A stretch of DNA of 37,298 bases from a virus (IMGVR_UViG_3300047557_001190:1-37298); one strand, 5' to 3'. Shown: positions 2,861-35,329, numbered from the stretch's first letter. Notes: generated by a model from the letters alone, not told the origin. Numbers and translations are program-made.

Positions 2861-2878
2861 CCTACTTATATAGGTAGG
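2861..2878 (+). promoter_or_regulatory. late-type promoter motif
   Basis: CCTACTTATATAGGTAGG is a perfect inverted repeat in its arms (CCTAC/GTAGG) and directly abuts the ATG at 2879. A TTTG lies 18 bases upstream of the TACTTATA core (2841-2844). It belongs to a set of seven related sites in the window. Confidence 0.65.
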
Positions 2879-3256
2879 ATGCTTTACATAACCAAAGCAG
2901 GAACACCCGAATTGATAATCACAGGCAGGGAAAAAGTAACGGTTTCTCCCGTGTATTATCTGTTGGTGTTTGAAAGTGAAATGTCGCAGGAACGCAAGGC
3001 ATTTATTGTGGCAGATAGCAGCACCGCACCAAACAGATACCAGTTATTTTCATTTGTTGAGGGTAGCAGCACCGCCAAAACGCTGGCAGTAGGTACGCAT
3101 TATTGGTCACTATACGCACAAACTTCCCCAACTAATACCAACTACCTATTGGCAAACGAGGAAATAGACAGAGGGCTTGCATATGTATCTACCAGCCATA
3201 CACCATTTAATGACCATGAAGTTAACACAACGATTAAACAGCACAACGTAGGATGA
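2879..3256 (+). CDS. small virion protein (haplotype A)
   Basis: A 125-residue, beta-rich protein (MLYITKAGTPELIITG...) of a type found next to capsid and portal genes in Bacteroidetes phages; its exact role is unknown. Visible features are an N-terminal strand pair, a central QERKAFIVADSS segment and a C-terminal part rich in T, N and Y (YAQTSPTNTNYLLANEEIDRGL). The start is fixed by the late-type motif, which ends at 2878. The stop overlaps the portal start (ATGA). Haplotype B differs at only four residues. It may be a head-tail joining or tube-associated protein; this is inference from position. Confidence 0.7.
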   Translation: MLYITKAGTPELIITGREKVTVSPVYYLLVFESEMSQERKAFIVADSSTAPNRYQLFSFVEGSSTAKTLAVGTHYWSLYAQTSPTNTNYLLANEEIDRGLAYVSTSHTPFNDHEVNTTIKQHNVG

Positions 3257-5172
3257 GTTTTGAACTTTTAAGAATAAATTTTGCCGAAAGCAAGCTGCCT
3301 GTATTCAAGGAAAACAAGAATAAAGGCATAATGTATTACGGGGAAAGCAATGATTTCCCCGCCCATTTGTTGGAGTTTTACAACCGCTCACCGAAACATG
3401 GTGCAATCGTGCGTCAAAAGGCGCGTTTTGTGGCAGGTGAAGAGACCATTGTTGATGGCAACCCCAATGCAGCCAAAATAATTGAATACGTGAACCCTTA
3501 TGAGGGTGTGCAAGAGTTCAAAAACAAACTGGCATTGGATTATGAGTTGTTTAATGGCTTTGCTTATGAGGTATGTTACAACAAATTAGGGCAAATTTCC
3601 GCCCTTTACCACGTTGATTTCAGCAAAATCCGCACACTTGACCATGAATTGTACATGTATGCGGAGGACTGGAAAAAGGCAAAGCATGAGGACATGGTAC
3701 ATTACCGGCCATTTAATCCAAAAAAGGCACAGCCATTAGAAAAGCAGCTGTTTTATTTTAGGGAATATGGGCCGGGATTGGGCGTTTATCCGCTGCCACC
3801 ATATCAGCATTGCTTACAGTATATTGAAATTGATGTAGAAATCGCAAACTTCCACAACAACAACATCCGCAACGGGTTTTCAAATGGAACTTTGGTGCAA
3901 CTTTTCAAGGGTCAGCCATCGCAGGAAATTGCATATGAATTTGAGCGTAAGTTCAAAGCCAAAACAACCGGCACGGACAACGCTGGTGGTGTGCTGATAC
4001 AGTTCAACGAGATGAACGAAAAGGAAGCCACCGTCAACCACTTGCAACCCAGCGAAATGGACAAACAATTCCTGCAACTGAACGAAACGGTGCAAGATGA
4101 GATTTTCGTTGGTCACAACTTCCCCAAAATTTTGCTGGGTTATTCCACAGAGGGCGCGCTCGGTCAGCGCAATGAAATGATTGAAGCGTATGAGTTGCTG
4201 CATAAATCATACGTAAACCGCAGACAGCACAAAATTGATACCTGCCTTGAAAATACTTTTGAAACGGTTTATCCGGGCATCTTAATCAGCACCAAAGACA
4301 GCGACTTTTTAGCCATTGATTATGTGGCTCTTTATCAGGTTGGTGTTGCCACCGTAGATGAAGCACGTGGAGCGTTGGGATTAGGCGAAAGTGAGCAGAA
4401 AGTAATTGATGCAGCACAGCGCACCATTGACAACATCAATAGCTTGTCGCCATTGGTAGCAAATAACGTGCTTGCCAATATGACCGTCAACGAAAAGCGT
4501 GCATTGGCAGGATTGCCACCCATTGAGGGCGGTGATGTATTGGCAACCACACCAAGCACCGCACCAGAGCCGACCACATTTTCAGCAGTCAAATTAAAGT
4601 GCGAATGCGAAACGTGGAAAGACAGCGACATTGAGGTATTTTCCAAGTTCGGTGCAAGTGCTGATGAGTTTGAAGACGTGCCGATGTTGTTTGCTTTGGA
4701 CACCAAAGAGAAAAAAGTATTGGCAGTTGTAACAGCAGATGAAAAAGCCACCGTGAAAAACATTGCTGATGCAGTAAAATTAGACGAGCCGGAAGTTATC
4801 GAGATACTGAAAAAACTGCAAAGCGACGGCAAGTTGAATTGGACAAACAACGCAATCAAAATCACCGATATTGGCAGGGCTGATATTCAAGACGAGGGAT
4901 TGCCTAAAATTGAGGTGCGTTACAAATACGATTTAAGCCCTGATGCACTGCCTTTGCAACCCGGTGGAAAGAGCCGTGAGTTTTGTATCAAAATGACCGA
5001 TTTAAAAAAGCTATACACCCGTGCTGAAATCGACCAAATCAGTGGCATTGTAGGTTACAACGCATGGCTTCGTCGTGGTGGTTGGTACACCGTGCCAAAT
5101 AGTGAGCCACCATTGCACATTCCGCATTGTAGGCACGAATGGTCGCAGCGTGTAGTAAGGAGGAAATCATAA
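3253..5172 (+). CDS. portal protein with MuF-like C-terminal extension (haplotype A)
   Basis: This 639-residue protein has portal character over residues 1 to about 380: MYYGESNDFP near the N-terminus, alpha/beta clip-like region, and a long stem region rich in N and Q (NFHNNNIRNGFSNG, then NETVQDEIFVGHNFPKILLG). The C-terminal third is unusual. It has a winged-helix-like stretch (KNIADAVKLDEPEVIEILKK) and ends with HIPHCRHEW, a Cys/His pattern like that at the end of Mu gpF-type head morphogenesis domains. A fused portal/MuF architecture is therefore likely. The protein starts by ATGA overlap with the upstream gene and stops by TAATG overlap with the next. Residues about 383-435 are missing in haplotype B. 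Confidence 0.8.
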   Translation: MSFELLRINFAESKLPVFKENKNKGIMYYGESNDFPAHLLEFYNRSPKHGAIVRQKARFVAGEETIVDGNPNAAKIIEYVNPYEGVQEFKNKLALDYELFNGFAYEVCYNKLGQISALYHVDFSKIRTLDHELYMYAEDWKKAKHEDMVHYRPFNPKKAQPLEKQLFYFREYGPGLGVYPLPPYQHCLQYIEIDVEIANFHNNNIRNGFSNGTLVQLFKGQPSQEIAYEFERKFKAKTTGTDNAGGVLIQFNEMNEKEATVNHLQPSEMDKQFLQLNETVQDEIFVGHNFPKILLGYSTEGALGQRNEMIEAYELLHKSYVNRRQHKIDTCLENTFETVYPGILISTKDSDFLAIDYVALYQVGVATVDEARGALGLGESEQKVIDAAQRTIDNINSLSPLVANNVLANMTVNEKRALAGLPPIEGGDVLATTPSTAPEPTTFSAVKLKCECETWKDSDIEVFSKFGASADEFEDVPMLFALDTKEKKVLAVVTADEKATVKNIADAVKLDEPEVIEILKKLQSDGKLNWTNNAIKITDIGRADIQDEGLPKIEVRYKYDLSPDALPLQPGGKSREFCIKMTDLKKLYTRAEIDQISGIVGYNAWLRRGGWYTVPNSEPPLHIPHCRHEWSQRVVRRKS

Positions 5173-5723
5173 TGGCAACATTTGCATTTTTTATATCAGA
5201 ACAAGACGTCAAAAAGAACACCCCGATTGACGAGAACGTGGACAGCAAGCTGCTGCAAACAGCTATGCGTACCGCACAGGATATCTACATCCGTGATATT
5301 TTGGGCAGCACTTTGTATGACAAGCTGTGTGACGACATTAACGGGGCAGGATTGGCAGGTGTTTACCTGACATTAGTGAATAAATACATTGCACCTTGCC
5401 TTTATCATTACGTTATTACGGACAGCATCCTGCCCATGACGTTCAAAATGATGAATAAATCGGTGGCAACGAGGGGTGCGGAGAACGCAAATGCCATTGA
5501 TGTTGACCAATTACGGATGATAGAGCAGCGTTATCAGCAAAAGGCGGAGTATTACGGGGAAAGATTACGCCTGTATCTGTGCGAAAACATGGATTTATTC
5601 CCAGAATACAAGACACCTGCATCCGGCATTGATGTCATAAACCCCCAAGACCAAGCCATTTTTGGCGGTTTTATGCTGGGCGAGGATGAGGAATATAAAT
5701 TTTTACGTGGTTTTTTTAGATGA
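5172..5723 (+). CDS. head-tail connector-like protein
   Basis: A 183-residue, mostly helical protein directly after the portal, in the usual place of a head-completion (adaptor) protein. Key patterns are SKLLQTAMRTAQDIYIRDILG, typical of helical adaptor proteins that dock on the portal, and a C-terminal EEYKFLRGFFR. The start at 5172 shares its A with the portal stop (TAATG) and removes an unlikely N-terminal extension from 5139. Its own stop overlaps a downstream ATG (ATGA). Function is inferred from position and helical pattern. Confidence 0.65.
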   Translation: MATFAFFISEQDVKKNTPIDENVDSKLLQTAMRTAQDIYIRDILGSTLYDKLCDDINGAGLAGVYLTLVNKYIAPCLYHYVITDSILPMTFKMMNKSVATRGAENANAIDVDQLRMIEQRYQQKAEYYGERLRLYLCENMDLFPEYKTPASGIDVINPQDQAIFGGFMLGEDEEYKFLRGFFR

Positions 5724-5768
5724 ACAAGGTAAGAATAAAGAACGAAAACAAATTAAAGGTATTTTTAA

Positions 5769-6233
5769 GTGGTAACGATAAACCAACTATTAGCAGCACT
5801 AACCAGAGCAGGCCAAAATCACAAACAGATAAAGGCAACAATCGTTAATGTTGAGCCAAACATCAACACAAACGGTGAGCAGCTTTATCCGTTAATGCGG
5901 ATTTTTCCTGACGGCTCGCAGGTGACCGTTGACAAGGTGATTTACCGCTTTGCCGTTGCTATTGCTGACCGCCACCGGGAAGATTTTACCGATGCGGTTG
6001 AACGTATCAGCGACATGCATACAGTTATGCTGGATATTTACTCGATGCTGCGTTATGTTTATCGTGGCAACATTGCAGGAACGTGGGTAATAGCCGACAG
6101 CATAACCCCGTTTTATGACGCACAAACCGACATCGTTTCAGGTGTCGCTTGTGTAATTGAATTTCATTGCAGCAACCTACGGGATTACTGCGACACCCCA
6201 AATAACAATTTAACATTTCCAACAATAGAATAA
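5769..6233 (+). CDS. neck or tail-completion protein
   Basis: A 154-residue protein starting with GTG immediately after an in-frame TAA (5766-5768), so no earlier start is possible. The N-terminus INQLLAALTRAGQNHKQIK is a helix followed by a beta-rich body (LYPLMRIFPDGSQVTVDKVIYRFAVAIADRHRED). This pattern is seen in Bacteroidetes phage genes placed between the connector and the fibres. Its size and place fit a neck, stopper or tail-terminator protein. I cannot separate these from the sequence alone. Confidence 0.5.
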   Translation: MVTINQLLAALTRAGQNHKQIKATIVNVEPNINTNGEQLYPLMRIFPDGSQVTVDKVIYRFAVAIADRHREDFTDAVERISDMHTVMLDIYSMLRYVYRGNIAGTWVIADSITPFYDAQTDIVSGVACVIEFHCSNLRDYCDTPNNNLTFPTIE

Positions 6234-6236
6234 AAA

Positions 6237-6506
6237 ATGAGTACAGCATTAGAATTTATGAGCGGCTTTACGGGCTGCAAAGTTATCAGCAACACATCAG
6301 CCAACACTGGCAGATTTCAAGGTTTTGTAGTTAATGCCGATGCGGTGGTTTCTGCCTGCCTCGATGAGAATGGTGCGTCTTTGATGTCAACCATCGGCCT
6401 GACAGGCGTTACCCTGAAACAAGGCACATTTATCAGCGTTGCCGAACCCGGGTATATCAGCAGCATCACGCTGACAAGTGGCTCAATCGTAGCATACAAC
6501 GTATGA
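6237..6506 (+). CDS. small beta-rich virion-associated protein
   Basis: An 89-residue protein beginning MSTALEFMSGFTGCKVISN, with alternating hydrophobic residues and many G, S and T, as in small beta-barrel or fibre-linked proteins. It starts 3 bases after the preceding stop and overlaps the fibre-like gene by 4 bases (ATGA). No recognised family. It may be a fibre attachment or trimerisation factor, judged only by its place before the fibre-like protein. Confidence 0.5.
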   Translation: MSTALEFMSGFTGCKVISNTSANTGRFQGFVVNADAVVSACLDENGASLMSTIGLTGVTLKQGTFISVAEPGYISSITLTSGSIVAYNV

Positions 6507-7372
6507 TAAGGCGAGGCATAGGTGTTCAGCCATATACTGCTGTTATTGGTGGGGTAATTCCATTGCTTGATACTTATGGTTCGGCTGCTGCGGCTTATAG
6601 CTTGCGTAAACTTCGCTCTGCTTACACTGGCAGTGCTGTTCGTGTACGTAGGTCCTCAGATAATACGGAACAAGACATTGGATTTGATAGTAATGGTAAT
6701 TTAGACCAAAGTGCATTAACAACTTTTTGCGGTGTTGGTAATGGGTTTGTAACAACTTGGTATGACCAAAGCGGTAACTCAAAGAATTTAACTGAAAGCT
6801 CGGCAACTTCACAACCTCAAATAGTTTCAAGTGGTGCTGTAATAACATTAAATAATAAAATAGCGTTAAATTTTGATGGAAGTAATGATAAATTAATCAA
6901 TACAACAACAGGATATACAATTAATAATACAACATTTTTAGGTGTATATTCTATTAATTCTGTTGCTGGATTGGGAGCTGTTTTTTCAACTGGTATTTTT
7001 TCGGGCAATGTTAGTGGATGGGGTATTGCAACAAATGGAAATTTAACAGCTATACAGACAAGATATAATGGCTCAGCATTAAATCCACCTGCAATAACAA
7101 TTTCAACAAATACACAATATCTAAATTTTGCAATAACTACTACTAATTCTGATAGTTATTGGTTAAATAATGGATTAGAAAATAATGCTACAGGTACAAG
7201 AAGTGCAGCAACAACCAATCAAAATTTAAGTGTTGGTGTTACTTATGATAGTTCACCACAGTATTATTTTCCTGGTAAATTACAAGAAGCGATTTTTTGG
7301 AGCAATAATAATTTATCAGCAAGTAGAAGTAATATTCAATCAAACATAAATACTTATTATACAATTTATTAA
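6503..7372 (+). CDS. fibre-like protein with lectin/arabinofuranosidase-like fold
   Basis: A 289-residue protein. The N-terminal part (residues about 25-95) has AAAAYSLRKLRSAYTGSAVRV, NTEQDIGF and TWYDQSGN, a pattern I associate with the catalytic domain of fungal-type alpha-L-arabinofuranosidase B and with phage proteins that reuse this fold. The rest (FDGSNDKLINTT...) looks like a concanavalin A-type lectin domain. Together these suggest a host-surface-binding tail or capsid fibre. From about 6840 onward the DNA is clearly more AT-rich and the protein N/T/S-rich compared with neighbours, consistent with module exchange in a receptor-binding gene. Catalytic activity is not claimed. Confidence 0.55.
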   Translation: MIRRGIGVQPYTAVIGGVIPLLDTYGSAAAAYSLRKLRSAYTGSAVRVRRSSDNTEQDIGFDSNGNLDQSALTTFCGVGNGFVTTWYDQSGNSKNLTESSATSQPQIVSSGAVITLNNKIALNFDGSNDKLINTTTGYTINNTTFLGVYSINSVAGLGAVFSTGIFSGNVSGWGIATNGNLTAIQTRYNGSALNPPAITISTNTQYLNFAITTTNSDSYWLNNGLENNATGTRSAATTNQNLSVGVTYDSSPQYYFPGKLQEAIFWSNNNLSASRSNIQSNINTYYTIY

Positions 7373-7608
7373 TGAATATAAAAGGATATAAATATAATAT
7401 AGAACAACAAGCAATAGATGCAAGAGAAACTTGTGATACATACTACTGTATTCCTGTTTCTCCTGACGATGTTACACAAAACTGGGTGGATTATAATTTT
7501 GCTGAATTAAATAATCCTCAATTCTGGTATATTATTTATGATGAGAGTTTATTGCCTGTTTTAGGTGAGCCAGTTGAGTTTGATGTAATAACACCGCCAT
7601 TCCCGTGA
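7372..7608 (+). CDS. small accessory protein after fibre-like gene
   Basis: A 78-residue protein rich in aromatic residues (CDTYYCIP, FWYIIYDES), which starts on the last base of the fibre-like gene's stop (TAATG). AT-rich like the end of that gene, so it may have moved with it as one module. Possible fibre chaperone or attachment protein by analogy with tail fibre loci, but no family is recognised. Confidence 0.45.
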   Translation: MNIKGYKYNIEQQAIDARETCDTYYCIPVSPDDVTQNWVDYNFAELNNPQFWYIIYDESLLPVLGEPVEFDVITPPFP

Positions 7609-7763
7609 AAAACTTGAACGAGACAATAGTGGGCAGTTGGATTTTGTGGTTAGCAGGTGCAGCAGCGGAGTTACTTCCGATTGTACAATTCCTTTCATTT
7701 ACGGCAGCTTTGATTTTATCTTGCATAGGCATTTACAAGTTTTTTAAAAATGGCAAAAAGTAA
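7605..7763 (+). CDS. small membrane protein, holin candidate
   Basis: A 52-residue protein starting at GTG (GTGA overlap with the upstream stop). It has a hydrophobic core (SWILWLAGAAAELLPIVQFL, then a second apolar stretch to GIYKFF) and ends with lysines (KFFKNGKK), consistent with one or two membrane spans and a cytoplasmic basic tail. It is the first of four overlapping genes ahead of the cell-wall hydrolase. Holin is a reasonable guess from size and place; there is no diagnostic motif. Confidence 0.55.
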   Translation: MKNLNETIVGSWILWLAGAAAELLPIVQFLSFTAALILSCIGIYKFFKNGKK

Positions 7764-7869
7764 AGAGGTTGTAAAATGGAAACCGAAAAGCAAACGGAAG
7801 TTAGGCAGGCATACGAAGTCAGCCAACAAACACAAATCAACCAAACCATACGTAGGACAAGGAAGGTGA
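7750..7869 (+). CDS. 39-residue basic protein
   Basis: Begins MAKSKEVVKWKPKSKRKLGR and ends KPYVGQGR, with about 40 percent basic residues. It overlaps the upstream gene by 14 bases, and its TGA stop overlaps the next gene's GTG (GTGA), the same coupling used elsewhere in this operon. Small KWKPK.../GQGR proteins recur, from memory, in Bacteroidetes phage lysis regions. Reading this frame as the real one means that the upstream part of the overlapping frame (from ATG 7776) is not coding. Function unknown; nucleic-acid or membrane-surface binding would fit the charge. Confidence 0.5.
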   Translation: MAKSKEVVKWKPKSKRKLGRHTKSANKHKSTKPYVGQGR

Positions 7870-8045
7870 AATTAAAAAACTACTTCTCACCAACACCTAA
7901 ACGCTTTCGTGTTTTGGGGGACAGCATTGCGGCTGCATCTTTGTTTGTTGCCGGGTTAAACCTTGACCACCCAAAACTGATGTTGCTGTGCGGTGTACTG
8001 GGTGCGGTTGGCAAATTTGTCACAAACTTTTTCGCAGAGGAATGA
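7866..8045 (+). CDS. membrane protein, second holin candidate
   Basis: A 59-residue protein with GTG start coupled to the preceding stop. The short N-terminus YFSPTPKRFRVLGDSI is followed by two apolar stretches (AAASLFVAGL and LMLLCGVLGAVGKFVTNFF). The pattern YF-PTPK-R--GD with a following hydrophobic hairpin is typical of holin-like proteins in Bacteroidetes phages. A longer version from ATG 7776 would add about 30 polar residues that overlap a better gene. The stop overlaps the spanin-like gene (ATGA). Confidence 0.6.
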   Translation: MKLKNYFSPTPKRFRVLGDSIAAASLFVAGLNLDHPKLMLLCGVLGAVGKFVTNFFAEE

Positions 8046-8560
8046 GGTGGGTAAATGCAGGTATTATTGTTTTTCTGCTTTTTTTCCTTGTGTTTAGCAC
8101 TCGGAGTTGTGAGGATGCAATCCAAACACGGCAAAATGTAGACACCATGCAAGGCAAAGTGGACAAATACAAGGCAGAAATCGACAGCTTGAAAGCCGAG
8201 TATTTAACCCTGCTGAATAGCCGTGCAGTAAAAATAAAAACCTTGCGTGAAATCAGGACAAAATATGTCCACGACACGCTGACCATTGAGGCACTCGTTG
8301 GTGACACTTCTGGCATTGCAAATCTGCTGTCTGAAAATGCCCTGATGAAAGAGATTGTTTTTGAGGATAGTTTAATAATTGCAAATCAAGGACAAGTGGT
8401 TATTTATCAAGATAGCGTAATTTCGCATTTAGAGGCGATTACAGCCACTCAAAAAGAATTGATGAGTGATTGTGCCAAACAAGTAAAAAAAGAGCGTGTA
8501 AAGACGAATTTATGGAAAACGATTGCGGTTGTGTTTGGATTGGTTGCTGTTGCAAAGTAA
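8042..8560 (+). CDS. spanin-like inner-membrane coiled-coil protein
   Basis: A 172-residue protein with an N-terminal membrane anchor (GIIVFLLFFLVFSTRSC), then a long heptad-rich region (about residues 28-75 and 95-145, DTMQGKVDKYKAEIDSLKAE and similar), and a short apolar C-terminus (IAVVFGLVAVAK). Anchor plus periplasmic coiled coil is the architecture of i-spanins such as lambda Rz. ATG 8042 overlaps the upstream stop (ATGA); a longer form would begin inside the holin-like gene. The Cys after the first span might suggest a lipobox, but the context is poor. No embedded outer-membrane partner gene was found. Confidence 0.5.
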   Translation: MRWVNAGIIVFLLFFLVFSTRSCEDAIQTRQNVDTMQGKVDKYKAEIDSLKAEYLTLLNSRAVKIKTLREIRTKYVHDTLTIEALVGDTSGIANLLSENALMKEIVFEDSLIIANQGQVVIYQDSVISHLEAITATQKELMSDCAKQVKKERVKTNLWKTIAVVFGLVAVAK

Positions 8561-8569
8561 CTTTGTAGA

Positions 8570-8779
8570 ATGTTTACACTAATTAAACAGCAAGGCATAC
8601 AAGATTTTTACTATTGCAAAGACGGGCAATGGCATCCATCTGCCGAACTTAATGCGGTGATAAAACCCTGCGTTTACCGCACGGAAAACGATGCACGGAA
8701 AGCATGGGAACGCCTCGGAAAACCTGCCATTTGTTTTGTGCAGGATATTAAGAACAGAGATAAAAAACTAATCGCATGA
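8570..8779 (+). CDS. hypothetical protein in lysis region
   Basis: A 69-residue soluble protein (MFTLIKQQGIQDFYYCKDGQ...) with two cysteines and a helical C-terminal half (TENDARKAWERLGKP). It starts 9 bases after the spanin-like gene and overlaps the cell-wall hydrolase gene by 4 bases (ATGA). No family recognised. It may regulate or accompany lysis; this is only a guess from position. Confidence 0.5.
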   Translation: MFTLIKQQGIQDFYYCKDGQWHPSAELNAVIKPCVYRTENDARKAWERLGKPAICFVQDIKNRDKKLIA

Positions 8780-9396
8780 AAAACCTGCAAATATATCTAA
8801 ATAGCAAAGGTGCAAATCTTGTCACCGATGGTGTCATTGGTTCACAAACATTGTCAGCACTTGACAGCTATATCAAAACCGAAATCAAAGCCCGTAAATA
8901 CAAGATGCCTGTTGACGGCCTTGTTTGGTTGCGTACTGATATAATATTCAGTAATAAGTTTGATGATTTTGTGGTATGTTACAAAGCAGGTCGTATCGTT
9001 TATGTTGCACCAGCATCCACCACAGCAGGGGATTTTTATGTCTACAACCCCTTGACCGTTGGCGGTGTAACTGGCACAGCCGTTGCCGTTGCACAACAGG
9101 TCACAAATAGTCACAGATTTGTGACAGGTGCGAATTGGAAAAACCTTTGGCTATCTGCACCTTACTTCCAGCAGGTTTTACCCATTACAATTCAGCGTGA
9201 CGCAAACAAAAATAATTTAGTTGACGGAGTTACAAGGCAATTTGGGCTTTATGGCATAAACTTTCACCGAGCAGGTATCGGAAATCTTGTAAACAAGTGG
9301 AGTGCTGGATGTCAAACAGTTCCTGATGCACATTGGTTTGAAATAATCAAACGATTTAACCCCGGTCAGGTTATTGACTTTACGCTTTTAGATTAA
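8776..9396 (+). CDS. cell-wall hydrolase (endolysin candidate)
   Basis: A 206-residue protein. Residues 1-33 (LQIYLNSKGANLVTDGVIGSQT) look like a short peptidoglycan-binding repeat. The C-terminal half has GINFHRAG (His164) and NKWSAGCQTVPD (Ser176 to Cys179), a His plus S-x-GC arrangement like that of L,D-transpeptidase-fold enzymes; related patterns occur in phage lysins. No signal peptide is visible, so release would need a holin, in line with the small membrane proteins upstream. It is the last + strand gene here and overlaps a convergent gene by 4 bases, with no terminator between them. Confidence 0.6.
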   Translation: MKNLQIYLNSKGANLVTDGVIGSQTLSALDSYIKTEIKARKYKMPVDGLVWLRTDIIFSNKFDDFVVCYKAGRIVYVAPASTTAGDFYVYNPLTVGGVTGTAVAVAQQVTNSHRFVTGANWKNLWLSAPYFQQVLPITIQRDANKNNLVDGVTRQFGLYGINFHRAGIGNLVNKWSAGCQTVPDAHWFEIIKRFNPGQVIDFTLLD

Positions 9397-10512: not shown

Positions 10513-10528
10513 CTACCTATAAAAGTAG
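10513..10528 (-). promoter_or_regulatory. late-type promoter motif
   Basis: On the minus strand this reads CTACTTTTATAGGTAG, abutting the ATG at 10512. With the flanking base the arms are TCTAC/GTAGA, a perfect dyad. It is the only member of the motif family on the minus strand and marks the metallophosphoesterase pair as a separate transcription unit. Confidence 0.65.
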
Positions 10529-10530
10529 AA

Positions 10531-10620: not shown

Positions 10621-10640
10621 ATACCGAATGGTATTATACC

Positions 10641-11884: not shown

Positions 11885-11905
11885 ATTGATTTGGTTTTGT
11901 ATGTG

Positions 11906-12070: not shown

Positions 12071-12071
12071 C

Positions 12072-13370: not shown

Positions 13371-13588
13371 ATTGCTTTTGTTTTAAGTTCTCGTTTTTTA
13401 TGGTTTAAAATTATCAGGTGAACACACGCATCCCAGTGAGATTTGAAAATCATCATGTTATCAACGCAATCGGTGTACGTTCCAAATTCAGTAAGGAACT
13501 GTGGAGAAAAAAGCCGATACAACCGGATAGCATAACCACCGTCTGGCAGTTCAACCACGTGCGGCTTGAATGGATTGATGAGTTTCAT
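13367..13588 (-). CDS. hypothetical protein behind leaderless-type promoter
   Basis: A 73-residue protein (MKLINPFKPHVVELPDGGYA...). The start at ATG 13588 lies 4 bases after a perfect -7 box (13600-13593). A TTG at 13603 would put the promoter inside the gene. It overlaps the SSB-like gene by 4 bases. No family recognised; the promoter suggests that it leads a subset of the operon. Confidence 0.6.
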   Translation of the reverse strand: MKLINPFKPHVVELPDGGYAIRLYRLFSPQFLTEFGTYTDCVDNMMIFKSHWDACVHLIILNHKKRELKTKAI

Positions 13589-13592
13589 TGTG

Positions 13593-13623
13593 CAAATATA
13601 CAAAATTAAACTTCATTCACAAA
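13593..13623 (-). promoter_or_regulatory. internal consensus promoter, leaderless type
   Basis: On the minus strand: TTTG (13623-13620), 19 bases, TATATTTG (13600-13593), then CACA and ATG at 13588. It lies within the 3' end of the DnaA-like gene. The usual start of transcription a few bases after the -7 box would be at or near the A of ATG, so the mRNA would have no leader. Confidence 0.8.
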
Positions 13624-16864: not shown

Positions 16865-17062
16865 ATTATTTTCAAGAAATTTCTGCTGCTCTTGCTGTGC
16901 ATCAGCGTAATCAATGCGGCTTTGAATTGTAAAATACCACGCCCAGCCCTTTTCCCATTCGTTGAATTGGTATGTACCTTGACGATACGGGTTGATTCCA
17001 TCATGCAAATCAGCATCAAATTCGGCTGCGGCTTTATGGCCTTGTTCAAATACTGTGTTCAT
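16853..17062 (-). CDS. hypothetical small protein, first minus-strand gene
   Basis: A 69-residue protein (MNTVFEQGHKAAAEFDADLH...) rich in W, Y and charged residues (EWEKGWAWYFTIQSRIDYAD). ATG 17062 lies 4 bases after a -7 box; a longer start at 17098 would run through the promoter. As the first gene transcribed leftward from the divergent region it may be an immediate-early protein. No family recognised. Confidence 0.6.
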   Translation of the reverse strand: MNTVFEQGHKAAAEFDADLHDGINPYRQGTYQFNEWEKGWAWYFTIQSRIDYADAQQEQQKFLENNFAK

Positions 17063-17066: not shown

Positions 17067-17074
17067 CAAATATA
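17067..17074 (-). promoter_or_regulatory. -7 promoter box, leaderless type
   Basis: TATATTTG on the minus strand, then CGGC and ATG at 17062. A CTTG about 21 bases upstream (17099-17096) is a weak -33 match. It lies in the very AT-rich divergent region between the two main transcription directions. Confidence 0.65.
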
Positions 17075-17092: not shown

Positions 17093-17419
17093 ATGCAAGT
17101 ATTTTATTTAAAAGTTATCCACAATCAACAAATCAATCGTAAAAATTCCACAAACTTTGCATCGTTGCAGAAACATACAAAGATATATTTCCAGCATTTC
17201 GGGTATTCGCCCGGTGATTTTATCCCATGCGAAGTGTGCGGTGCGGTGGCAAACGATATACACCACATTCAAGCACGTGGCATGGGTGGCAGCAAGACAG
17301 CTGACCGAATTGAAAACCTGATGGCTCTTTGCCGAAAACATCACGAAATGTACGGAGATAGGAAGCAATTCAAAGATTGGCTGCAAAAGGTACATGATTT
17401 GAAAATGAAACGTGAGTGA
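17093..17419 (+). CDS. HNH endonuclease-like protein
   Basis: A 108-residue protein with an HNH motif: Cys46 and Cys49 (CEVC), DIHHIQARGMGG with HH at 57-58, NLMALCRKHHEMYG with Asn75, Cys80 and His83. Small HNH proteins in phages serve in DNA packaging next to terminases or as free-standing nucleases; here the gene is far from the terminase, at the start of the rightward early region, so its role is open. The divergent AT-rich region upstream probably holds its promoter, but no consensus is clear. The stop overlaps the next gene (GTGA). Confidence 0.75.
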   Translation: MQVFYLKVIHNQQINRKNSTNFASLQKHTKIYFQHFGYSPGDFIPCEVCGAVANDIHHIQARGMGGSKTADRIENLMALCRKHHEMYGDRKQFKDWLQKVHDLKMKRE

Positions 17420-17943
17420 ACAAAAACCAAATCATAACAGAGATAGCAACGAGCAAATGGCTGCCGGATTTCTGCCAAAAAGTAGGCAAGCACGTCGCAT
17501 CCGATTTACAGCAGCATCTTTTGTTGTTACTCTGCGAGATGAGCGAGGAGAAAATCACAAACCTGCACCAGAACGGAACGCTGATATTTTACCTTGTCCG
17601 GGTGGGAGTGAATGCGGTGAACGGCAACCGATATACGAAATTCTACCGTGACCATTTACGCACCAATGAAACGCTACCCGATGACTATGACGACATGGCC
17701 GAGGATTACGATGAAAGCAATTTTAGGCGTATGCAGGAAGCCAGGGAAGCAATCAACTACAAAGAGGTGGCAATCCACTTTAACCGCTCGGACTGGTATG
17801 TTGAGAAACTATGGATGCTCTACAACGAAAACCGCAGCATGGCCAGCATAGCAAAAGCCACCAAAATAAATTATAGAGAAATCAGTCAAATAATAAATGC
17901 CCTGAAAGCCCAAATAAAAGAACGTTACAATGAACTTGGTTAA
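17416..17943 (+). CDS. sigma-like transcription factor candidate
   Basis: A 175-residue protein with GTG start. Its N-terminal region (EIATSKWLPDFCQKVGKHVA, then DLQQHLLLLLCEM and LIFYLVRVGVNAV) resembles region 2 of small sigma-70 relatives found in Bacteroidetes phages. An acidic spacer (PDDYDDMAEDYDE) follows, and the C-terminus has a helix-turn-helix-like stretch (SMASIAKATKINYREISQII). That order fits a minimal sigma factor. Since the window shows a second promoter class before head, tail and phosphoesterase genes, this protein is the best candidate to direct it. Similarity is from memory and weak at residue level. Confidence 0.55.
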   Translation: MNKNQIITEIATSKWLPDFCQKVGKHVASDLQQHLLLLLCEMSEEKITNLHQNGTLIFYLVRVGVNAVNGNRYTKFYRDHLRTNETLPDDYDDMAEDYDESNFRRMQEAREAINYKEVAIHFNRSDWYVEKLWMLYNENRSMASIAKATKINYREISQIINALKAQIKERYNELG

Positions 17944-20948: not shown

Positions 20949-21720
20949 TTTAATAGAAGTTCAACACAACCGCAAAATAGGTGAAGCGTGTGAATACATT
21001 GAGCCAAATGTAACGGAAAATTGTATTTTTTATGCCGATGGTGAACCAATAGGATTTTACCTTACAAAGATGCCTGAAAAAATGTGCAAACTTGCTGACT
21101 TGGCGGATGCTGAATTGAGAAGTAAAAATGTACCTAAAACAACAATGGACAGAAAAAAACCATTAGGGGAGGTCAATGGGAAAAGAGAGTATTTGGTTGT
21201 TTCTCAATATTCAACAATTCTCGGAAGTTGCCCACCAAAGCCACATATGAAAAGACCCTATGCTTCAATAAGCTCAGTTCATCAAGTCAAATCAGCACAA
21301 ACATTTATCAAAGCAATGTTGATGCTCGCAAAGGAAAGTGAGCAGGTCATTAAAGAACTTTTACCGAAACAATACGAACAACAAATAAAACTATTTGAGG
21401 ATGTGCCGGATAAGTGGAAGTTCGGCAACCTTTTCACCAGTTCAATTTCAAATTACAACATATCAGCACCATTTCATCGTGATACTGGAAATATAGTAGG
21501 TGCAGTAAATGTAATTATATGCAAACAAAAGAATGCAAAGGGTGGTGACTTGCACATTCCAGATTATGATGCTACCATTGGCCAAGTTGATAATTCAATT
21601 TTAGTTTATCCGGCTTGGAGAAATGTTCATGGTGTTACTCCGATTATACCAACTCATGAAGGCGGTTATAGAAACTCACTTGTGTTTTACCCTTTGAAAG
21701 CATTTGTAGGATTAGAATAA
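20935..21720 (+). CDS. 2-oxoglutarate/Fe(II) oxygenase-like protein
   Basis: A 261-residue protein. In the C-terminal half HRD (His181, Asp183) and VHGV (His232) form the metal triad, and RNSLVFY (Arg246) would bind 2-oxoglutarate, in a double-stranded beta-helix order (GGDLHIPDY between). The pattern FHRDTGN...GGDLH...RNSLV resembles phage TET/JBP-type oxygenases that hydroxylate DNA pyrimidines, but also other DSBH enzymes. The N-terminal 160 residues are of unknown type. ATG 20935 is preferred; an earlier ATG at 20884 lies deep in the FkbM gene. Confidence 0.65.
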   Translation: MKRIDLIEVQHNRKIGEACEYIEPNVTENCIFYADGEPIGFYLTKMPEKMCKLADLADAELRSKNVPKTTMDRKKPLGEVNGKREYLVVSQYSTILGSCPPKPHMKRPYASISSVHQVKSAQTFIKAMLMLAKESEQVIKELLPKQYEQQIKLFEDVPDKWKFGNLFTSSISNYNISAPFHRDTGNIVGAVNVIICKQKNAKGGDLHIPDYDATIGQVDNSILVYPAWRNVHGVTPIIPTHEGGYRNSLVFYPLKAFVGLE

Positions 21721-25042: not shown

Positions 25043-25047
25043 ACAGC

Positions 25048-25239: not shown

Positions 25240-25258
25240 CCTACTTTTATATGTAGGG
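25240..25258 (+). promoter_or_regulatory. late-type promoter motif before tRNA-like element
   Basis: CCTACTTTTATATGTAGGG, with perfect CCTAC/GTAGG arms. Unlike the other sites it is not followed by ATG but, 10 bases on, by the 5' end of the tRNA-like element. That argues for a transcriptional rather than a translational role of the motif. Confidence 0.6.
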
Positions 25259-25268
25259 CTACGGCCTT

Positions 25269-25382
25269 GCCGGGTTAGTGTATAGAAGGTAACATTTCCA
25301 TGTCGACTAACGGGTTGCTTTGAGCGGCAATAGATAAGCAATTCAAATATGGAGGACGGGGGTTCGATGCCCCCACCCGGTG
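25269..25382 (+). tRNA. tRNA-like gene with 40-base insertion at anticodon loop
   Basis: A cloverleaf can be drawn by hand: acceptor GCCGGGT (25269-25275) with ACCCGGT (25375-25381, first pair G-U); D arm GTGT/ACAT with a 10-base loop containing GG; anticodon stem TCCAT (25297-25301) with ATGGA (25349-25353); a 4-base variable loop; T arm GGGGG TTCGATG CCCCC (25358-25374). The anticodon loop is 47 bases instead of 7. Removing 25302-25341 leaves a normal loop TTCAAAT with anticodon CAA. Leu and Ser tRNAs normally have long variable arms, which this lacks. No CCA is encoded. It could be a decaying tRNA, one with an unusual intron, or a tRNA mimic. Confidence 0.6.
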
Positions 25383-25384
25383 CG

Positions 25385-25969: not shown

Positions 25970-25984
25970 GTACTTTTATAGGTA
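25969..25984 (+). promoter_or_regulatory. late-type promoter motif
   Basis: GGTACTTTTATAGGTA abuts the ATG at 25985 and overlaps the stop codon end of the upstream gene. The core matches other sites, but the arms do not form a dyad here. Confidence 0.55.
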
Positions 25985-29949: not shown

Positions 29950-29950
29950 A

Positions 29951-32056
29951 ATGGCACAAACCACAGTAGCAATAAATTTAGAGGCCAAAACCAAAGGCAC
30001 GGAAAGCGTAAAGTCGCTGAAAACACAAATCAGGGAGGCCACCCAAGATGCAGCCGCAATGGCTCAAAAGTTTGGGGAGTTTTCACCACAGGCGATTGCA
30101 GCCACAAAGCGTGTAGCTGAACTTAAAGACCAAATGCAGGATTTGCAACAGCGTGTTCAAGCATTAAATCCTGATAAGTTTGAAGCAATCGGTAAGGTTG
30201 TTGGTGGAGTGGCCAGTGGATTTACCGCAGCACAGGGGGCAATGGCTTTGTTTGGTGCTGAAAGTGAAGATGTGCAGAAATCATTGCTAAAAGTGCAGGG
30301 TGCAATGGCACTTGCACAAGGAATGCAGGGATTGTTGGATGCTGGAAAGCAATTTAGGGCATTGGGTCAATCTGCTGTTGCTGCATTTAATTCAATGACC
30401 ACTGCATCAAAAGTATTTTTGGCAACTGGTATTGGTTTGCTAATCACAGCCATTGGTTATGTAGCTGCAAACTTTGACGACCTTGCAAAATCACTTGGTT
30501 TCGCCAAAAGCGAAATGGACAAGATGAACAAGGCCATGAATGTTGCAGCAGCAGAAACCAAAACCCAAGCGGCTGATTTAAACTTTTACAACACCGTTGT
30601 TCAGGACACTACAAAAAGCGAGGGTGAGCGTGAGTTCGCATTGCAGAAACTTAAAGAGGCAGGTATCGCAACAGATGATGTAAACATAGCAAATGCCAAT
30701 TCTCTTGGTAAATTAAATGATAGAGTTGCACAGCAAATCGTTTTGATTGCACAAAGGGCAAGGGTTGAAGCATCAGCACAAATTCTGCAAGAGAAAACCA
30801 AAAAGCTGATTGAAATGCAGAATGGTGATTTAGATGATGCAACAAGTTTGTGGGATAAATTTGTTGCAGGTGCAAAAGGTGCTTTTATGGGTGCTGCTGC
30901 TGGTGCAGAGGAATATCAAAAACGTGGCTTAAATAATATAAATGAAGCCCAGAAAGAAGTAACACAAGCAACCCAAGTATATCAAAAAGAACTTGAAAAA
31001 AATACCAAATTAGAGGGTGTTGCTGTTGCCACTTCAAAGGCAGTTACCTCCACTTTAAAAAATCAAAAACAAGCTACCCGTGATTTAGCACAAGAGGAAT
31101 TGCAGCGTAGGGCTACTATGTTAGCAATTGACCAAACAACACTTGATAAAGCCATTGCCGCAGCTGATGCAGCATTTGCGGTAAAAGTAAAACAACTTAA
31201 AGAACAAGGATTTACAGAGGTTCAAATCGCCACAATGCGTGATGCCGAACTGGAAAAGGTGCGAACTGCGTTTTATGACAAACAAAAGGCCGATGATAAA
31301 AAAGCTGCTGATGAAAAGGCAGAATTTCAAAAGAAACAAAATGAAAGTTTACTGAAAGCCAATGATACATATTTTAAGGCAGCACAAACACAGCTAATTG
31401 AAAGAAACGCATCACAGGCAGAATTTGATGCACTTGAACTTGAAAGATTACAGGCAAACCTAGATGCACAAAAAGCAATCAATGATGCTAATAGTGCAGA
31501 GGTTGTTGCAGCCGAAGCGGAACTGGCAGCAAAGAAAAAAGACATTTACGATAAAGATGCCAAAGCCAAAGAGGACACAGAAAAAGCAAAACGTGCGGCT
31601 GAAATGGCAACCCTCGAAAGTGCATCTTCAATAATCGGCTCTCTCGGTCAGCTATTTGGACAAAGCGAAAAAGAACAAAAGGCATTCGGTCTTGCACAAA
31701 TCGCAGTTGATACCGCAAAGGCATTGACCGCAGCACAGGCCAATGCAATGGCACCCACACCTGACAACGTGGCGACAAGTGGTGCTGCTGGTTTTGCTAA
31801 ATATGCCGGGTATGTGGCAATTATTCTTTCAAACGTAGCACGTGCAAGGGCATTGATAAAAGGTTCTGGTGGAGGTGGTGGAGGTGGGGGTGGTGCTGCT
31901 GCTGCACCTGCTGCCCCGTCATTTGCACCAACCGTTGGCGGTGGACTACCTGATGAGCAGCAGTTTGGTGGCATGGGCAGAGTTTATGTGTTGGAGGGTG
32001 ATATTACCAAAACCCAAACCCGTGTGCGTAGGTTAAGAAATACCAGTGTCGTTTAA
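29951..32056 (+). CDS. tail tape measure protein
   Basis: A 701-residue protein with long coiled coils (about 10-75 and 365-560, rich in A, K, E, Q), a hydrophobic segment (FLATGIGLLITAIGYVAANF, about 150-172) and a glycine-rich stretch near residue 640 (a run of G). This is the pattern of tape measure proteins. By the known rule of about 1.5 angstrom per residue the tail would be roughly 100 nm. The order chaperones, completion protein, baseplate, tape measure is unusual because the tape measure comes last. The final part (YVLEGDITKTQTRVRRLRN) is a typical conserved end in Bacteroidetes phages. Confidence 0.8.
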   Translation: MAQTTVAINLEAKTKGTESVKSLKTQIREATQDAAAMAQKFGEFSPQAIAATKRVAELKDQMQDLQQRVQALNPDKFEAIGKVVGGVASGFTAAQGAMALFGAESEDVQKSLLKVQGAMALAQGMQGLLDAGKQFRALGQSAVAAFNSMTTASKVFLATGIGLLITAIGYVAANFDDLAKSLGFAKSEMDKMNKAMNVAAAETKTQAADLNFYNTVVQDTTKSEGEREFALQKLKEAGIATDDVNIANANSLGKLNDRVAQQIVLIAQRARVEASAQILQEKTKKLIEMQNGDLDDATSLWDKFVAGAKGAFMGAAAGAEEYQKRGLNNINEAQKEVTQATQVYQKELEKNTKLEGVAVATSKAVTSTLKNQKQATRDLAQEELQRRATMLAIDQTTLDKAIAAADAAFAVKVKQLKEQGFTEVQIATMRDAELEKVRTAFYDKQKADDKKAADEKAEFQKKQNESLLKANDTYFKAAQTQLIERNASQAEFDALELERLQANLDAQKAINDANSAEVVAAEAELAAKKKDIYDKDAKAKEDTEKAKRAAEMATLESASSIIGSLGQLFGQSEKEQKAFGLAQIAVDTAKALTAAQANAMAPTPDNVATSGAAGFAKYAGYVAIILSNVARARALIKGSGGGGGGGGGAAAAPAAPSFAPTVGGGLPDEQQFGGMGRVYVLEGDITKTQTRVRRLRNTSVV

Positions 32057-32057
32057 A

Positions 32058-32072
32058 CCTACTTTTAAAGAT
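32058..32072 (+). promoter_or_regulatory. late-type promoter motif (weak)
   Basis: CCTACTTTTAAAGAT abuts ATG 32073. The left half and core are as in other sites; the right arm is degenerate. It decides the start of the protease gene over an upstream GTG (32046). Confidence 0.5.
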
Positions 32073-33080
32073 ATGGATTTGCCAGTTTACAAAATTGTCG
32101 TTAATGAGGATGATGACACCGGGGTTGAGTTCGTGTCGTTGGTTGACCGCCCTGCTATACAAAAGGATTTCATGCTGTTTAATCAGCAGTTTGTTGAACC
32201 CGGTGCGAAAGAAACTGAGGATGAATTTATCAGCAGGTGTATTCCGTACATGGTAGGCGAGGGCATGGAACAAGACCAAGCCGCTGCCGTGTGTTATTCC
32301 AAATGGCAAAGCCGCAAAGAATTTGAAAGCTATGACGATTACCCAGAAGCAGCCAAAGAAAACGCAAAAGTTGCACTGCGTTGGGCAGAGGAAAACGGCT
32401 GGGGTGATTGCGGCACTCCCGTAGGCAAGATAAGAGCAAACCAATTAGCCAATGGTGAAGCCATTACCCGTGAAACCATTGCACGAATGGCAGCATTTGA
32501 ACGCCACAGGCAGAACAGCCAAAAAGAACTTGGCGACGGATGCGGTAGATTAATGTGGTTGGCATGGGGTGGTGATGAGGGCATCGAATGGGCAAGCCGT
32601 AAACTGCAACAGATAGACATGAAACAGGCATACAGCGTGCAGGATGAGGAAAAGCGTATTGTCACCGGGCCTGCAATGTTGGCTGATTTACCCATTTACC
32701 GCTATGATGATGTACGTGGTGAGTACTATGTAACCTTTGATGCACCTACTATTTGGACTATTGCCAAAAAATTTGTCCGTAAAAACTTCTACAAGGCCGT
32801 AAATACCGACCATGAAACCCCCGTTGATAGTGGTGTCCACATGATTGAGAGTTATTTTATTGACCGCGAGCGTGGTGTTATGCCACCCAAAGGATATGAG
32901 GATGCCAAAGACGGCAGCTGGTTCCTGACCTATTTAGTGGACAATGACGAATTATGGTCAAAAGTAAAAGCAGGGGAATGGAAAGGGTTTAGCGTTGAGG
33001 GCTTTTTTGACATGGAAGAACAAGACGAGGTTGTAACGCTGATGCGTGAAATAGCCACCATGCTGAAAAATTTTGCATAG
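32073..33080 (+). CDS. prohead protease (XkdF/S78-like) with inserted domain
   Basis: A 335-residue protein. Residues 1-35 (VYKIVVNEDDDTGVEFVSLV) and 195-312 form a split XkdF-like serine protease: IVTGPAMLADLPIYR, NTDHETP with His247, and GFSVEGFF with Ser307. Between them lies an insert (about 48-182) with EFISRCIPYMVGEGMEQDQA and ANQLANGEAITRETIARMAA and GDGCGRLMWLAWGG, a Cys-containing module common in Bacteroidetes phage proteases. It should cleave scaffold or capsid precursors, matching the scaffold and capsid genes that follow. The motif at 32058-32072 fixes the start. Confidence 0.8.
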   Translation: MDLPVYKIVVNEDDDTGVEFVSLVDRPAIQKDFMLFNQQFVEPGAKETEDEFISRCIPYMVGEGMEQDQAAAVCYSKWQSRKEFESYDDYPEAAKENAKVALRWAEENGWGDCGTPVGKIRANQLANGEAITRETIARMAAFERHRQNSQKELGDGCGRLMWLAWGGDEGIEWASRKLQQIDMKQAYSVQDEEKRIVTGPAMLADLPIYRYDDVRGEYYVTFDAPTIWTIAKKFVRKNFYKAVNTDHETPVDSGVHMIESYFIDRERGVMPPKGYEDAKDGSWFLTYLVDNDELWSKVKAGEWKGFSVEGFFDMEEQDEVVTLMREIATMLKNFA

Positions 33081-33086
33081 GTTTTA

Positions 33087-33110
33087 CCATACCTACCTTT
33101 TATGGTATGG
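33087..33110 (+). promoter_or_regulatory. late-type promoter motif of head module
   Basis: A 7-bp dyad CCATACC (33087-33093) with GGTATGG (33104-33110) has TACCTTTTAT in the loop; the right arm overlaps ATG 33107. A TTTG lies 18 bases upstream of the core (33072-33075). On the circular map this is also the promoter of the gene at window position 6. The arms differ from the other sites but still pair. Confidence 0.65.
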
Positions 33111-33679
33111 ATTTCAAAACAGAACTTTCAGAAATGAAGAGCGGACTTGCTGCTTTTATGGCAGAAGTTAAGCAGCGTTTCAATGAAGTTCCTGCTGAAC
33201 CCGTTGAAGCTGCGTTTGGTGAGTTGACTTTGGTTGACGGCACAATCGTAGTATTTGACGGTGAAGAATTGAATGCTGGCAGTATGCTGTCAGTAAAAAC
33301 TGAAGAGGGTATCGTGCCTGCTCCTGATGGGGTTCACGAAACCACCGACGGTCTGCTGATTACTACCAAAGACGGTGTTGTTGAACTTATCGAAGAGAAA
33401 ACAATGCCCGTTGAGGAAGTTGAGGTTGAAAATCAATTCGCAAGCTTGGAACAATTTGACGCTCTGCGTGCCGCTAATGAGGAACTGGCTGCAAAGATTG
33501 CCACCCTCGAAAATGCCCTTATCAATGTGTTGGGCAAAGTAGAAGAAACTTTCAGCGTATTTGAAAAGTTTGCATCTGCTACACCTGAGCCAGCTAAAAA
33601 ACCCTTTGGCTCTGTAAACAAAAAAAACGAAGAAATTTTTAAGGGTTTTGTTTCAGCATTAAACAAAATTAAAAACTAA
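33107..33679 (+). CDS. scaffold-like head assembly protein (haplotype B)
   Basis: A 190-residue homologue of the protein at 6-575, with the same layout: helical N-terminus, beta-rich DG-turn region, coiled coil (about 108-155) and a lysine-rich tail. Changes are concentrated at the C-terminus (SVNKKNEEIFKGFVSALNK). The full upstream context is visible here: it follows the protease by 26 bases with the dyad promoter motif reaching its start codon. On the circular genome there would be only one such gene per phage. Confidence 0.65.
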   Translation: MDFKTELSEMKSGLAAFMAEVKQRFNEVPAEPVEAAFGELTLVDGTIVVFDGEELNAGSMLSVKTEEGIVPAPDGVHETTDGLLITTKDGVVELIEEKTMPVEEVEVENQFASLEQFDALRAANEELAAKIATLENALINVLGKVEETFSVFEKFASATPEPAKKPFGSVNKKNEEIFKGFVSALNKIKN

Positions 33680-33684
33680 TAATC

Positions 33685-34635
33685 ATGGCATTTGACGTAA
33701 CTGGTTTAAGTAACTACACCAAAGAGGAGAGCCTTACGCTCCTGACCAAAGCTATGTTCACAGGCAAGACAGCTTCTCTGCTGAATGCCGCCGGACAAGT
33801 TCTCCCTAACATTAAAAGCTCCGAAATTCTGCCTCTGCTGTATTCGGATGTTTATTTTCAAGCCGACAGCTGTTCTTATCAGTCAAGCGGAAACACCACC
33901 CTTTCTAAGCGTACTTTGACCGTAGGTAAAGTAAAGGTTCAAGAGACCCTTTGCCCTAAAGACCTCGAAACCAAATACACGCAGAAAGCTTTGAACGCTG
34001 GCGAAGCCATCGACATGGGTGTTTTCACCGAGCAGATTGGTAACGAAAAAGCTGCTAAGATTGCCGAAGCTATCGAAACTGCTATTTGGCAGGGTGACAC
34101 CACTGGTGGCGTTGGAAACAACGCTTACTGGGATGGTTTCCTTACCCAGCTTGATGACCTCGGATTTGGTGGCGCAGGCGACCCCATCAAGGGTAACGTA
34201 GGTGATGCATACACTTCAATCACTGCTTCAAACATCGACGATATTATCGGTACTATTTACAGCGTAATTCCTGCCGAACTGTTGGGCAAGCCTGACCTGT
34301 TCATCGGTATGGGTGTTGACACTTTCCGCAAATACCGTCAGTGGCTGGTAGGTGCTAACCTTTACCACTACCCTGCTAACGAAGTAGCTGAAATGGAAAT
34401 CATCGACCCTGTAACTGGTATCAAAATCTACGGTCTGCACGGCATGAACGGTACTAACAAAATTGTTGCTGGTCTGTGGAGCAATTTCTTCTTGGGTACA
34501 GATTTATTCGATGAGGAAAGCGATTACAGCTTCATTTTCAATCCATTTGAGAGGCGCGTACAATTCCACGCTGCCTTTAAATACGGAGTTGCTCTGGCCT
34601 ACCCAGAACAAGTTTGCTACTTTAAACTTCCATAA
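33685..34635 (+). CDS. major capsid protein (haplotype B)
   Basis: A 316-residue version of the protein at 586-1533, about 91 percent identical by my hand count (28 changes). Changes cluster near residues 26-67, around 148-172 and at 272-285 (LFDEESDYSF for MMNEEESYEF), likely surface-exposed loops, while core strands such as TLTVGKVKVQETLCPKDLET are unchanged. Followed by the same terminator hairpin. This supports strong purifying selection with divergence at exposed sites between two strains. Confidence 0.8.
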   Translation: MAFDVTGLSNYTKEESLTLLTKAMFTGKTASLLNAAGQVLPNIKSSEILPLLYSDVYFQADSCSYQSSGNTTLSKRTLTVGKVKVQETLCPKDLETKYTQKALNAGEAIDMGVFTEQIGNEKAAKIAEAIETAIWQGDTTGGVGNNAYWDGFLTQLDDLGFGGAGDPIKGNVGDAYTSITASNIDDIIGTIYSVIPAELLGKPDLFIGMGVDTFRKYRQWLVGANLYHYPANEVAEMEIIDPVTGIKIYGLHGMNGTNKIVAGLWSNFFLGTDLFDEESDYSFIFNPFERRVQFHAAFKYGVALAYPEQVCYFKLP

Positions 34636-34678
34636 TAACTAACCATTAAGTAAGTTACAAAGAAGTAAGTTTAACCCG

Positions 34679-34709
34679 GGGGGTGGGGATACAACCTCAC
34701 CCCCTTTTT
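34679..34709 (+). terminator. hairpin terminator after capsid gene (haplotype B)
   Basis: The same 10-bp GC-rich stem as at 1570-1595 (34679-34688 with 34695-34704), here followed by TTTTT. The stem and loop are unchanged between haplotypes although the flanking bases differ, which supports function. Confidence 0.8.
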
Positions 34710-34726
34710 AATTAAAAAATAAAAAA

Positions 34727-35245
34727 ATGGCCTGTATACTCACCACCGGCTTCCAGCTTGACTGTAAGACAGCAAGTGCCGGAATTAAGACAATTTGGCT
34801 CGTTGAATTTGACGCCAAATCTACCCTCACAAAATCAAGCGGCGAAGTTTCCGCACACACCTTGTCAGGTGGCAAATCTTATTTCAAGTACGAACTTGAA
34901 AAAGAAACTGCCTCTATGACTTGGAGAACAATTCCCTCAACTGAGAACGGCACTGTATTTTACGAAGCCGACCTCGTTGCACGTCTGCACAAAGTAACCA
35001 CCGCCCAGCGTAACGAAATTAAGCTGTTGGCTCAAAACCGTATGTTGGCTATTGCCCTTGATGCAAGCGGTGACTACTGGCTGCTGGGTGCTGACTACGG
35101 TGTTCAGTTGCAGCAGAGCGAAACTAACTTCGGTCAGGCGTTTGGTGACTTCAAAGGTCACGTTTTAAATTTCTTGCACAAAGAAACCGATTTACCTTTG
35201 AAAGTTCAAGCGGCTGTTGTATCTTCGCTGGCTCTTGGTTCGTAA
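34727..35245 (+). CDS. abundant virion protein, probably tail tube (haplotype B)
   Basis: A 172-residue protein differing from the copy at 1615-2133 at only three residues (V4I, T10Q and one S/T), despite many silent base changes. This shows strong selection on the protein. Flanked by the same two terminators. The tail-tube assignment is inferred as for the other copy. Confidence 0.55.
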   Translation: MACILTTGFQLDCKTASAGIKTIWLVEFDAKSTLTKSSGEVSAHTLSGGKSYFKYELEKETASMTWRTIPSTENGTVFYEADLVARLHKVTTAQRNEIKLLAQNRMLAIALDASGDYWLLGADYGVQLQQSETNFGQAFGDFKGHVLNFLHKETDLPLKVQAAVVSSLALGS

Positions 35246-35265
35246 TTGATTTGAGTGTTTCATGC

Positions 35266-35299
35266 AAAGGGGGCTGCCATTCGGTGGCCCTTTTTGTTT
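35266..35299 (+). terminator. hairpin terminator (haplotype B)
   Basis: Identical stem (GGGCTGCC/GGTGGCCC) and T-run to 2154-2187. Here the T-run leads directly into the late-type motif of the next gene, showing the arrangement without the methyltransferase cassette. Confidence 0.85.
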
Positions 35300-35311
35300 A
35301 ACATCAAAACT

Positions 35312-35329
35312 ATCTACTTTTATGGGTAG
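35312..35329 (+). promoter_or_regulatory. late-type promoter motif
   Basis: ATCTACTTTTATGGGTAG abuts ATG 35330. With the next base the arms are TCTAC/GTAGA, against CCTAC/GTAGG at the homologous site 2861-2878: both arm ends changed together. TTTG stands 18 bases before the core (35293-35296). Confidence 0.65.

Follow-up and report, generated by a model that had tools for sequence, protein, structure and literature searches.

A start-codon-proximal box as the probable core of late promoters for near-leaderless mRNAs in a Bacteroidota-type phage

What is the short, recurrent sequence that stands just ahead of start codons in the genome of a tailed phage, and what reads it? The stretch of DNA analysed here, called the window, is the whole of an IMG/VR record (IMGVR_UViG_3300047557_001190; 37,298 bases) from a Bacteroidota-type tailed phage, with portal, terminase, XkdF-type protease, DnaB-like helicase and HNH genes among its phage-type genes. 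Relatives of its terminase occur in genomes or MAGs of Mucilaginibacter, Fibrisoma and Bernardetia and in one Flammeovirgaceae MAG, and a phage collection searched with the DNA, the capsid and the sigma protein yielded no cultured relatives. An earlier note on this DNA had described seven sites sharing a core and had read them as late promoters with a changed -7 box that give leaderless mRNAs, with an RNA hairpin or operator as the alternative. The comparison with related phages favours the first of these readings. We put at roughly 0.8 the probability that the phage's late promoters have this motif as their core (-10/-7-like) element and give leaderless or near-leaderless mRNAs, probably being read by a phage sigma factor.

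All seven sites are present where they had been placed and, given as 8-base boxes, are as follows.

2863..2870, plus strand: late box TACTTATA, 8 nt before ATG 2879; diverged copy of the 35315 locus
10520..10527, minus strand: late box TACTTTTA, 7 nt before ATG 10512 of a metallophosphoesterase-like gene
25242..25249, plus strand: late box TACTTTTA, upstream of a tRNA-like element and a neck/tail-completion gene
25971..25978, plus strand: late box TACTTTTA, 6 nt before ATG 25985 of a 399-aa virion-region gene
32060..32067, plus strand: late box TACTTTTA, 5 nt before ATG 32073 of a prohead-protease-like gene, XkdF family
33094..33101, plus strand: late box TACCTTTT, 5 nt before ATG 33107 of a 190-aa gene just before the putative capsid gene
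35315..35322, plus strand: late box TACTTTTA, 7 nt before ATG 35330 of a 125-aa gene before the portal gene

The two ends of the contig, about 1-4900 and 33102-37298, represent a single region in diverged copies, 83-91% identical and spaced about 32.3-33.1 kb apart, so the sites first placed at 2861 and 35312 are one locus and the seven sites reduce to six loci. The genome is probably circular, of about 32-33 kb, and assembled from two strains, which would make the record a strain chimera. Within 2157-2849, one end-copy has a DNA methyltransferase gene inserted between terminator and late box; the gene is absent from the other.

The shared core held up in part. It is complete at 10513 only, differs by one mismatch at 2863, 25242, 25971 and 35315 and by three at 32060, and the site at 33087, TACCTTTTAT, does not match it within three mismatches. 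When the window was searched with the core, seven matches came up where 0.94 would be expected, a number reached in 0 of 100 shuffles; one of the seven is the 2863 site read on the reverse strand. The pattern of box, gap and ATG likewise gave seven matches against 0.93 expected, with a maximum of 4 in 200 shuffles. Six of the sites had been said to abut an ATG directly; they are close to the start, but the ATG actually lies 5-8 nt past the 8-base box. At the 32060 site the real start is 32073, within the called ORF. The description of one site, at 25242, as preceding a tRNA-like element was correct, and there the ATG is not adjacent. This element (25269-25384), downstream of the 25242 box, has a 7-bp acceptor and a perfect T arm, and its “anticodon” stem, TCCAT/ATGGA, encloses about 50 nt, not 7. 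It is kept in relatives with a variable insert; ARAGORN calls a tRNA-Leu(caa) in one relative only (L218:3137-3211), and Rfam gives a weak tmRNA match.

Relatives were drawn from 66-80 loci from each of two protein searches and from 10 loci found with a DNA pattern. The earlier note had proposed a search for the motif in related phages, and of 159 distinct ortholog upstreams, across five gene families, 153 do have the box, with a gap of 4-8 nt, nearly all 5-8. The conserved unit of these upstreams is the 8-base box TAC[T/C]TTT[A/T], located 5-8 nt before ATG or GTG, while the arms and flanks vary. Forms in the relatives include TACTTTTA, TACCTTTT, TACTTTTT and TACTTATA, together with TACTATTC/T in one clade, and the last base (n = 153) is A in 88, T in 57, C in 8 and G in none. 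Among 1901 candidate starts on the relatives' contigs, the late box peaks 5-7 nt before the start; a promoter-like core thus lies a few bp ahead of the start codon, as in leaderless genes. Per-column information at late sites is confined to the box, an A at -3 and a C at -1, and the same measure made no shared -35-like element evident upstream of the late boxes. A conserved A at -15 upstream of late starts partly coincides with stop codons of upstream genes. In the more distant relative G016 and in Mucilaginibacter-type loci, a sigma homolog is present and no start-abutting box was found.

It is conceivable that such a motif is a recombination or module-boundary sequence, kept identical by phage exchange and devoid of regulatory function, and its location at gene junctions would suit this. 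Conservation is limited, however, to about 8 bases plus the spacing, with diverging flanks, and in one clade, described below, all families have changed in concert, all of which renders a boundary sequence extremely improbable. Another means by which the motif could act is as RNA: a dyad at the start codon would be bound by the ribosome or a phage protein and so control translation. The earlier note had reported a dyad with compensating arm changes, short stems are possible at five window sites, and in the protease family 4-bp stems are slightly commoner than in that family's own shuffle control. Across relatives, the dyad is nonetheless at the shuffle-control level in the other four of the five gene families, with no conserved stem or compensating changes, so the “compensating arms” are unsupported in general. 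Conservation falls mainly on the TTT core, which is the unpaired part of the putative dyad. Moreover, some boxes come immediately after terminators, 1 nt past the T-runs, and the upstream transcript therefore often would not reach them. A hairpin or operator is thus disfavoured, and we regard it as very improbable.

The terminators bear on the promoter reading as well, and one of them lies in the window.

35267..35295, plus strand: intrinsic terminator; 19 nt separate the end of its T-run from the 35315 box, and the stem covaries among relatives

At this locus of the 125-aa and portal genes, 21 distinct covarying hairpins were found, and in nearly all of the long relatives the terminator ends 19 nt ahead of the box. 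In other cases the terminator ends 1 nt before the box, namely at the neck gene in three relatives (G002, G003, G007) and at the metallophosphoesterase gene in two (G012, G014). From T-run to start codon there are 14-35 nt overall, and 14-16 nt where the terminator ends 1 nt before the box. With terminators so near, a promoter serving the next gene has room for hardly any leader. Were the gene reached instead by read-through or antitermination, with a local promoter lacking, the conservation of the box would have no explanation, which favours a local promoter. Elsewhere in the window, a G/C-rich hairpin with a T-run (34640-34722) follows the putative major capsid gene, ahead of the next one, and is kept in relatives; no late box follows it, and it is perhaps a partial terminator that tunes the level of capsid mRNA.

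The context of the start codons was also compared. On leadered Bacteroidota mRNAs, initiation is helped by adenines at -3, -6, -12 and -13 (PMC6847099). Boxed genes have an upstream A content of 0.27, the background value, as against 0.58 for unboxed genes of the same phages, and by this measure the boxed genes have no ribosome-binding context upstream of the start, as expected of leaderless genes. A further possibility is that the box is a translation-initiation element, a non-SD ribosome signal within leadered, operon-internal mRNAs. Its fixed distance to the start codon would agree with this, but it is the unboxed genes that have the usual A-rich context, the box comes after terminators, and host-type promoter boxes occupy the same kind of position on early genes, so that we hold a ribosome signal to be very improbable.

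These host-type boxes deserve attention in their own right. In host bacteria, a TAHHTTTG box occupies -12 to -5, leaving 4-5 nt to the transcription start (PMC6847099, PMC9723704), and its G at -5 is nearly invariant (PMC6847099). Over the same 1901 candidate starts on the relatives' contigs, TAHHTTTG lies exactly 4 nt before the start in 54 cases, as compared with 0-6 for any other distance. Examples from the window are given here.

2187..2194, plus strand: host-type box TATATTTG, 4 nt before ATG 2199 of the DNA methyltransferase gene, just after a terminator at about 2157-2183
8558..8565, plus strand: host-type box TAACTTTG, 4 nt before ATG 8570; similar box in relatives
13593..13600, minus strand: host-type early box TATATTTG, 4 nt before a minus-strand ATG (gene at 13586)
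17067..17074, minus strand: host-type early box TATATTTG, 4 nt before a minus-strand ATG (gene at 17060)

Since hosts space box and start by 4-5 nt, a 4-nt gap is a leaderless one, and the early mRNAs should begin at the AUG. The early and late classes are presumptive, being assigned by gene content and layout. Three other Bacteroidota phages, 11b, FCL-2 and B124-14, gave no clear peak of TAHHTTTG at 4 nt, and the early design is therefore not general.

The shared late box precedes late/virion operons and is distinct from these early promoters. It has in common with the Bacteroidota sigma-A promoter (-33 TTTG / -7 TAHHTTTG), whose exact box the early genes use, the frame TA-N2-TTT; it differs in having A, T or C and never G at position 8, a gap of 5-8 rather than 4, and no consistent -33 element. 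TAHHTTTG with G at -5 occurs in 0 of 153 late boxes, whereas the early boxes of the same phages have it. This sharp contrast, as well as the phage sigma-like gene discussed below, was absent from the earlier account.

Host sigma-A could conceivably read the same leaderless late promoters, alone or helped by a phage activator or sigma appropriator, in place of the 175-aa phage protein described below. The retained TA-N2-TTT frame would be in keeping with this, as would the TTTG 18 nt upstream, which had been pointed out before and is present at three of the seven sites. That TTTG, however, is the end of the terminator T-tract at 35315; at 2863 it is a copy of the same tract, and at 33094 it falls in the last codons of the protease gene. 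The other loci are without it. Late boxes in general have no TTTG around -33, and the host -33 TTTG was rejected as a part of the late promoter, T-tract or coding sequence accounting for it. The nearly invariant host G at -5 (PMC6847099) is missing in 153 of 153 boxes, and one clade has changed its late box with the host-type early box unchanged. Sigma-A as the late reader is consequently unlikely in our view, though well short of negligible.

The clade in question has a sigma that is 39% identical. There all six gene families have the late box as TACTATT[C/T] or a close variant with A in place of T, and the early box is still TAHHTTTG; among phages with the other three sigma types, the late box is TACYTTT or TACTTATA. 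The concerted change would be best explained by a trans-acting reader specific to late boxes. A candidate for this reader is encoded in the window.

17416-17943, plus strand: candidate phage late sigma, 175 aa; ECF-like two-domain fold by prediction

The gene overlaps the HNH gene, precedes the terminase genes and is well conserved, being present in 15 of 16 long relatives. An AlphaFold model of the protein (mean pLDDT 78) has two helical domains joined by a flexible linker. When compared with the PDB by Foldseek, it matched mainly ECF sigmas (best E 0.018, probability 0.99), with weak E-values and low TM-scores, and the named viral structures that it matched were sigma-70/ECF proteins. Searches of Pfam and of PDB sequences gave no significant sigma match. 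Because sequence profiles miss the protein, we infer from structure prediction and gene position that it is likely an ECF-like sigma and the late-box reader.

A parallel exists in the cultured Nonlabens phages P12024S and P12024L (Inhavirus), where a PF04542 (sigma-70 region 2) gene lies between the VRR-NUC gene and the terminase genes; in P12024S, its place matches that of the 175-aa gene. As in the window phage, a box abuts late-gene ATGs, and that of P12024S, CGTTAATA-N4-ATG, is analogous but different. CGTTAMTA-N4-ATG was found at 6 sites in P12024S against 0.07 expected and at 5 sites in P12024L against 0.06 expected, and five of the P12024S sites carry AAAACAAA 22 nt upstream. The motif and its upstream AAAACAAA likely constitute an ECF-type late promoter in a cultured phage. 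Unlike the window phage, then, these phages have a bipartite, ECF-like promoter with the box CGTTA[A/C]TA-N4-ATG, and a profile comparison detected no similarity between the P12024S sigma and the 175-aa protein. In P12024S (L242, JQ823122), the motif positions are 167, 3019, 5400, 21269, 23949, 25189 and 26790, with a spacing of 11 nt at 21269.

Several described systems are comparable. In phages phiEco32 (gp36) and 7-11 (gp47), a phage sigma with host core RNA polymerase transcribes the late genes (PMC8948821). The phiEco32 promoter resembles the one proposed here in being a single 9-bp element with a start 6-8 bp downstream (PMC8948821), comparable to our box-to-ATG gap of 5-8 nt. It differs in its sequence (tAATGTAtA), the 7-11 promoter is bipartite, both have enterobacterial hosts, and neither is described as abutting start codons in that paper, unlike the boxes of the window phage, whose sigma is a predicted one. 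In Deinococcus-Thermus, a -10 box adjacent to the ORF gives leaderless expression (PMC12340547), and the Thermus phage phiYS40 has leaderless middle and late mRNAs (PMC3594737). The window phage resembles the former in the close placing of promoter core and start codon, a few bases apart, and would resemble phiYS40 as a phage that makes leaderless mRNAs, but both belong to another phylum and use another box; in the window phage the early and late boxes differ from each other and both are start-adjacent. The proposed scheme is a variant of known phage sigma/late-promoter systems; no description of a promoter scheme of this kind was found for Bacteroidota phages in the open-licence literature searched.

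The comparison as a whole shows the box, its spacing, its orthology, the terminators, the background A content, the early/late contrast and the concerted change; the transcription start, the late timing and the pairing of sigma with box are what we infer from it. In the model that emerges, host sigma-A would transcribe the early genes from TAHHTTTG boxes exactly 4 nt before the ATG. The late boxes, without the G that host boxes require, would most likely be read by host RNA polymerase carrying the phage ECF-like sigma (17416-17943). Late transcription would start at or within about 4 nt of the AUG or GUG and, since the gap varies from 5 to 8 nt, some late leaders may be 1-4 nt long. The resulting leaderless or near-leaderless mRNAs would serve the operons for head, neck/tail, protease and portal as well as a single metallophosphoesterase gene; only at 25242 would something else, the tRNA-like element, be transcribed first.

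At about even odds, both transcription classes are leaderless or nearly so, from sigma-A boxes early and through the phage ECF-like sigma late, in a design that Inhavirus repeats with another box and sigma. If so, this design may have evolved more than once, and it could bypass or outcompete the leadered translation of the host late in infection. Leaderless translation would thereby be predicted in a phylum that is believed to rely on it little, where leaderless or very short leaders are rare, at 3.7-5.5% (PMC7366714, PMC9723704). The scheme offers a testable model for early/late switching in Bacteroidota phages and names a candidate late sigma that Pfam misses. Finally, the proposed sigma/promoter pair is small, occurs naturally in two specificities (TACTTTT and TACTATT) and could serve as a tool for Bacteroidota genetics.
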